This document shows positions 45,316-45,643 of a stretch of 45,728 bases of DNA, one piece after another. Source of the DNA: a marine bacterium B5-7 (GTDB taxonomy: Bacteria; Pseudomonadota; Gammaproteobacteria; Arenicellales; CAJQKF01); contig BQJD01000030.1 in the NCBI GenBank assembly GCA_021604525.1, forward strand, positions 1-45,728, given 5' to 3'. Below the pieces are notes generated by a model, which made no database searches, had not been told where the DNA came from, and saw nothing but the letters and a program-made list of their open reading frames with translations. Both the position numbers and the translations under genes were made by a program. How positions within the stretch are numbered: the first letter of the stretch is position 1; each line of letters opens with the position of its first letter.

Positions 45316-45595
45316 AAACGTACCACCGCGTTTACGCGGACGACTCGGCGTTTGGCTTGTAGAGATTCGCGCAGGTGTATATGTCGGCAATCCTTCGGCA
45401 AGACTTAAGGATTTCATCTGGCAACAGGTAGAAGAAGGTCTCGATCAGGGCAATGTGGTAATGGCCTGGAATACCAACACCGAATCCGGGTACGATTTTA
45501 AAACGCTTGGAGAGAATCGCCGCGAACCGGTTGATTTCGATGGACTTCGCCTGGTTTCTTTCTTTCCTCAGGAAGAACCGGAAGATGCTCTTTAA
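45296..45595 (+). CDS. cas2: CRISPR-associated protein Cas2e
   Basis: 99 residues. It begins [20 protein letters not shown], closely matching E. coli Cas2e, with [31 protein letters not shown] and [14 protein letters not shown]. It is a structural partner of Cas1 in spacer integration. The short C-terminal EEPEDAL extends past the domain. The last codons and stop (GCT CTT TAA) form part of the boxA-like element, so the protein end and a putative RNA signal share DNA. The longer open frame upstream lies inside cas1. Confidence 0.95.
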
Positions 45596-45597
45596 CA
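45586..45597 (+). promoter_or_regulatory. boxA antitermination-like element at the cas2 end
   Basis: TGCTCTTTAACA, identical to the E. coli rRNA-leader boxA core as I recall it; the identity continues through AATTT. boxA binds NusB/NusE (S10) and makes RNA polymerase resist Rho. It overlaps the cas2 stop codon and lies 102 nt before the first repeat. A GU-rich TTGTGTGG at 45619-45626 occupies a place like that of the GU-rich segment after boxA in rRNA leaders. boxA has been described upstream of bacterial CRISPR arrays. Confidence 0.7.
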
Positions 45598-45643
45598 ATT
45601 TGGAAAAGCGATACTATCTTGTGTGGTTGTAAGGTTCAATTTG

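Follow-up and report, generated by a model that had tools for sequence, protein, structure and literature searches.

The cas2 gene of a complete type I-E CRISPR-Cas locus in the marine bacterium B5-7 ends within an exact boxA 12-mer, TGCTCTTTAACA (core TGYTCTTTRAMA), at positions 45586–45597 of the forward strand, and the comparisons reported here make it likely that this element is the boxA of the array leader and serves Nus antitermination of the array. Positions refer to the window, the whole 45,728-nucleotide stretch of DNA that was analysed. The 12-mer has the position and sequence that an earlier note, made from the letters alone, had given it; a whole-genome search found this 1 exact copy in the 4.41 Mb genome, and the element lies in sense orientation, starting 114 nt before the repeat at 45700–45728. 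Compared with other loci, the site is very probably a genuine boxA, and a chance origin is untenable because it is conserved in relatives. The analysis shows its presence, its uniqueness, a conservation of nucleotides beyond that of the protein, its sense orientation and its independence of cas2; we infer Nus binding at the boxA and protection of the array from Rho.

Antitermination of CRISPR arrays by boxA and the Nus factors was reportedly described by Stringer et al. 2020 (eLife 9:e58182). The gammaproteobacterial arrays of that study likewise have a sense boxA in the leader, 5' of the first repeat, whereas in the window the boxA and the cas2 stop codon are fused. The phenomenon is already published, as related in PMC7862264 and PMC12691694. 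BoxA loads NusB-S10 and the Nus complex, and polymerase is thereby shielded from Rho on untranslated RNA (PMC12691694). In Legionella multiplex CRISPRi, precursor-crRNA rises when a boxA is placed 58 or 90 nt upstream of the first repeat, the leader boxA having given an increase of about 10-fold (PMC7862264); that leader was engineered and non-coding and its array heterologous, whereas the boxA of the window overlaps cas2. In the mechanism that we propose, boxA would be bound as RNA, in a type I-E leader, by NusB and ribosomal protein S10 (NusE). As polymerase passes the end of cas2 into the array, nascent UGCUCUUUAACA would recruit the Nus complex, and polymerase would be Rho-resistant before it meets the array, which is long and untranslated; transcription would then still reach the leader-distal spacers. 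The leader is short, and its boxA is fused with the end of cas2, supplying that gene with its last two codons (Ala-Leu) and stop.

The cas operon and the register of boxA

The operon cas3-cse1-cse2-cas7-cas5-cas6e-cas1-cas2 (36947..45595, forward strand) is complete, with the cas3 start at 36947 as set by the ORF-caller, and its genes overlap or sit at most about 20 bases apart. The cas1 stop at 45315 falls inside the start of cas2e (45296..45595, forward strand, TIGR01873), which ends in EDAL and a stop (GAT GCT CTT TAA). The 12-mer overlaps this stop in the -10 register and is made up of one base of the third-last codon, GCT CTT, TAA and the two following bases, CA. It had been described as built into the last three codons and stop of cas2; this holds for two full codons and the stop, but the third-last codon contributes only its one base. 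Directly 5' of cas3, sequence reading places a gene for a 332-aa WYL-like transcription regulator (35903-36901), with a weak library match, which may control the cas operon. The protein of 33773-35767, used to scan viral contigs, gave no match.

Conservation among Cas2e loci

Two samples of Cas2e loci were compared with the window. The first came from 369 genomes of the same class, of which 31 had Cas2e and 30 were fetched; the second was drawn from a collection of named genomes by taking its 80 best Cas1e relatives, to which E. coli K-12 was added. Counting was limited to the 101 loci in which a repeat follows within 400 nt, and any site from -40 of the stop to the repeat with at most three mismatches was scored as boxA. 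By this measure boxA is present in 85 of the 101 loci, and in 72/101 with no more than two mismatches, as compared with 0.5% of shuffles of the same stretches at two mismatches and 1/101 on the reverse strand. Its start falls exactly at -10, the register of the window, in 57/101 loci, a figure that exaggerates the generality of the overlap because 80 loci were chosen by likeness to a Cas1 alignment headed by the window; most other boxA sites start -2 to +16 nt from the stop. In the class sample, which was not chosen for likeness to the window, boxA occurs in about 26/30 loci and overlaps the cas2 stop in about 9/30. Judged from these loci, beta- and gammaproteobacterial type I-E systems commonly have boxA fused with the cas2 stop.

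In L013 (G252:C1, cas2 stop at L013:1803) a lone copy of the repeat lies within boxA, the order being the cas2 end GCTCTTTAG, one repeat, CTCTTTAACAATCC, and then a normal leader and array; this looks like a misplaced repeat insertion with the letters of boxA left on either side. Elsewhere (L012, L014, L015, L008, L130 and the arrays L182 and L192 of G174) a second or sole boxA-like site lies some 30-45 nt 5' of the repeat, within the AT-rich stretch that precedes the IHF site, and in L012 and L014 CTCTTTAACA is found at both places. The repeat-proximal site could be a second boxA or a mere likeness of the IHF region.

Transcription across the leader

Antitermination would require that boxA be transcribed, and in one alternative reading, which we regard as improbable, it is not: TTAACA would act as the -35 of a leader promoter (TTAACA-17-TATCTT, 45592-45620), leaving boxA outside the transcript. 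A promoter scan of the window gives this site 9/12, and in E. coli transcription of CRISPR-1 is described as beginning some 50 nt upstream of the first repeat, with a likely CRISPR-2 start at about 95 nt (reviewed in PMC10011333); a start at about 50 nt would be downstream of a boxA so placed, and one at about 95 nt roughly within it. However, no -10 enrichment is seen in the 85 loci, where spacings of 15 to 19 after boxA account for 0, 3, 5, 2 and 1 loci, respectively (at least four matches), and a -35 element leaves unexplained the strong conservation of G-C-T-C 5' of TTTAACA. Promoter-like sites downstream of boxA do exceed expectation (18 versus 6.2), an excess that may reflect the AT-rich integration sites.

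In the 250 nt upstream of boxA there is no promoter-like enrichment (3 loci versus 4.7 expected). A promoter within the end of cas2 was considered as well and set aside, with no enrichment across loci. The transcript that bears boxA would begin upstream of the cas2 end, and we prefer read-through from the cas operon as its simplest source, since no terminator-like site was found between cas2 and the array on the forward strand (44300-45728 searched). A predicted RNA fold, made from a single sequence, pairs boxA with the downstream leader, so that loading of the Nus complex would need to be co-transcriptional.

The leader and its integration signals

Apart from boxA, the roughly 104 nt between cas2 and the first repeat read as an ordinary I-E leader with a GGTAG motif and an IHF site. 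The upstream motif for spacer integration, TTGGTAGA (45644..45651, forward strand), lies 59 nt before the TTCCCC of the first repeat, and AATCAATAGATTG (45679..45691, forward strand) matches the IHF-site consensus WATCAANNNNTTR at a conserved spacing to the repeat; these correspond to the integration signals of E. coli, where the role of IHF is described (PMC10011333). The first repeat, GTGTTCCCCGTGCCCGCGGGGATGAACCG (45700..45728, forward strand), is at the contig end: window and contig both stop at 45728, in or at the end of this repeat, and the array itself lies outside the window. When leaders are aligned on the repeat, a common TTGGTAGAATTT, an AT-rich stretch and an IHF-like site all appear at fixed spacing.

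Because the 12-mer adjoins known integration signals in most I-E leaders, it might itself serve spacer integration, as a DNA element recognised by Cas1-Cas2 and IHF. We give this little credence. The GGTAG motif stands 59 nt before TTCCCC in 66/91 loci, but the distance from boxA to the repeat ranges from 35 to 220 nt (sd 26), and this lack of a fixed spacing sets boxA apart from the integration signals. Geobacter-type loci keep a GGTAG-like motif and the repeat-proximal leader but mostly have no boxA, and the 12-mer equals the boxA in the rRNA leaders of the same genomes. The description of boxA as part of the array leader is borne out; the exact 12-mer also heads arrays that have no cas2.

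RNA signal and protein end

These arrays are also what counts against a further reading, to which we likewise assign a small probability, that a genuine boxA acts mainly on the tail of the cas mRNA (its stability, its folding or Rho control at the cas2 end). The overlap with cas2 is compatible with it, as is the possibility that in some species the array promoter lies downstream. In Methylobacter tundripaludum, however, two arrays carry the exact 12-mer, L180 beside cas2 and L191 elsewhere without it, at an equal distance of about 100 nt from the repeat, and E. coli K-12 CRISPR-2 (L193), which has no cas2, carries the exact 12-mer 104 nt before TTCCCC. Conversely, the two cas2 loci with no repeat within 400 nt (L021 and L066) have no good boxA. 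In E. coli CRISPR-1 (L057) boxA is degenerate, TGATCTTTAATA, and since CRISPR-2 has the exact 12-mer the two arrays may differ in antitermination.

The same arrays bear on a more elaborate version of the leader reading, in which the joining of boxA and stop is selected as a hand-over: the ribosome completing cas2 would shield polymerase from Rho as far as the stop and then release just the RNA that NusB-S10 binds, so that the Nus complex would take over from translation with no gap in protection and cas2 translation would gate the array. This we think improbable, and E. coli CRISPR-2 and the second Methylobacter array, with boxA but no cas2, show that boxA can at least do without such a hand-over.

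Where boxA and cas2 overlap, the nucleotides are far more uniform than the protein demands. Across the 57 overlap loci Leu is written CTT in 47/48 cases (8.9% in the same genes at large), Ala is GCT in 40/40 (background 14%), Pro is CCT in 9/9 (13%) and Val is GTT in 9/10 (18%). The stop is TAA in 46, TGA in 10 and TAG in 1, and CAA follows it in 44/57. The amino acids track the variants of boxA, namely Ala, Val or Asp, then Leu or Pro. Beyond its last conserved motif Cas2 continues for 15-25 aa, a single outlying motif hit giving 5, and the tails have diverse endings in loci whose boxA comes after the stop. The comparison of the 12-mer with third-position freedom in the cas2 of relatives, proposed in the earlier note, thus finds the free positions fixed; that note had looked for relatives in which the cas2 end is kept as protein and the 12-mer is not, and the outcome is the opposite, the 12-mer being kept while the tail varies. 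Its view that one DNA stretch serves both protein and RNA is supported, the 12-mer being kept in relatives beyond the constraint of the protein. With third positions fixed, the tail variable and the 12-mer kept in arrays without cas2, it is the RNA signal that stays constant and the cas2 end that adapts; as far as these sequences tell, the signal dictates the protein tail and not the reverse. That the C-terminus is conserved as protein (Ala-Leu), with the boxA match as a by-product, is suggested by the many relatives ending in -AL or -VL but is refuted, unless the sampling is misleading, by third positions fixed against codon bias, by variable tail length and other endings when boxA is 3' of the stop, by equal conservation of the bases past the stop and by the arrays without cas2, and we consider it extremely improbable.

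Comparison with rRNA leaders

The resemblance to an rRNA leader (boxB-boxA-boxC) is confined to boxA. The boxA consensus is common to the rrn leaders of related genomes and to CRISPR leaders, and nearly all of these rrn leaders have boxA followed by TTGTGTGGG-like letters. In an rRNA leader a boxC-like GU-rich element would be expected 15-20 nt after boxA, and nearly all the rrn leaders examined have a boxC-like element. CRISPR leaders have no conserved counterpart of that element and, unlike the rRNA leader, carry integration signals beyond boxA. The GU-rich element reported for the window is present as a boxC-like octamer, TTGTGTGG (45619..45626, forward strand), 21 nt after boxA, but it is not conserved, being found in 1/85 CRISPR leaders, the window's own; the E. 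coli CRISPR-2 leader has TTTGTGTG, which resembles it. The letters AATTT, said to be shared with rrn beyond boxA, are shared with E. coli rrn but not with the rrn leader of this genome, which reads AGCTCTTTTAAA-AGTTAATACC. Its boxA, AGCTCTTTTAAA, differs from TGCTCTTTAACA at 3/12 positions, and after boxA the two stretches are dissimilar, with 14/43 ungapped identities. The proposal that an rRNA leader had been transplanted in front of the array is therefore rejected: the octamer is peculiar to 1/85 leaders, the own rrn leader agrees at 14/43 positions, the remainder is an ordinary I-E leader, and boxA alone is shared.

The variants of boxA give modest support, at the level of sequence, to the view that the CRISPR boxA is served by the same factor as the rRNA boxA. 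The two are more alike within a genome than between genomes (201 matches versus a mean of 195, permutation p = 0.02, 21 genomes, relatedness uncorrected), the variants that match being GATC, TTTTAC and TTTGA; nusB is present in the genome of B5-7. The own rrn leader was taken from the gammaproteobacteria-like 16S on C20. A 16S on contig C102 had been considered as the organism's own and was set aside, its letters being alphaproteobacteria-like and the 230 nt examined holding no boxA. At C102:1718-3234 (L002) alphaproteobacteria-like 16S letters are accompanied by a GC-rich spacer, and the contig is, on its letters, probably a contaminant of the assembly. A 16S covariance search in ten relatives found none, and the 16S of relatives was located by a pattern of its 5' end, which performed better.

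Evolution and implications

On a quick Cas1 tree of 99 loci, with up to four mismatches allowed and L013 counted, the overlap is present in 64 and requires at least 15 changes, at least seven of them forced by well-supported branches. We considered a single inherited quirk and discarded it on these counts; with 15 changes, the overlap is recurrent or repeatedly lost, and not peculiar to this genome. The nearest relatives of the window on this tree are a Chromatiales bacterium, Sedimenticola and a tubeworm symbiont.

A single stretch of DNA that is at once a protein end, a stop codon and an RNA antitermination signal would be widespread, and the overlap makes the array's need for boxA testable in place by synonymous mutation. 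If boxA must be transcribed, arrays with boxA at the cas2 end cannot depend solely on a start inside the leader such as that reported for E. coli CRISPR-1, and many type I-E systems may obtain most of their full-length array RNA by read-through from the cas operon.
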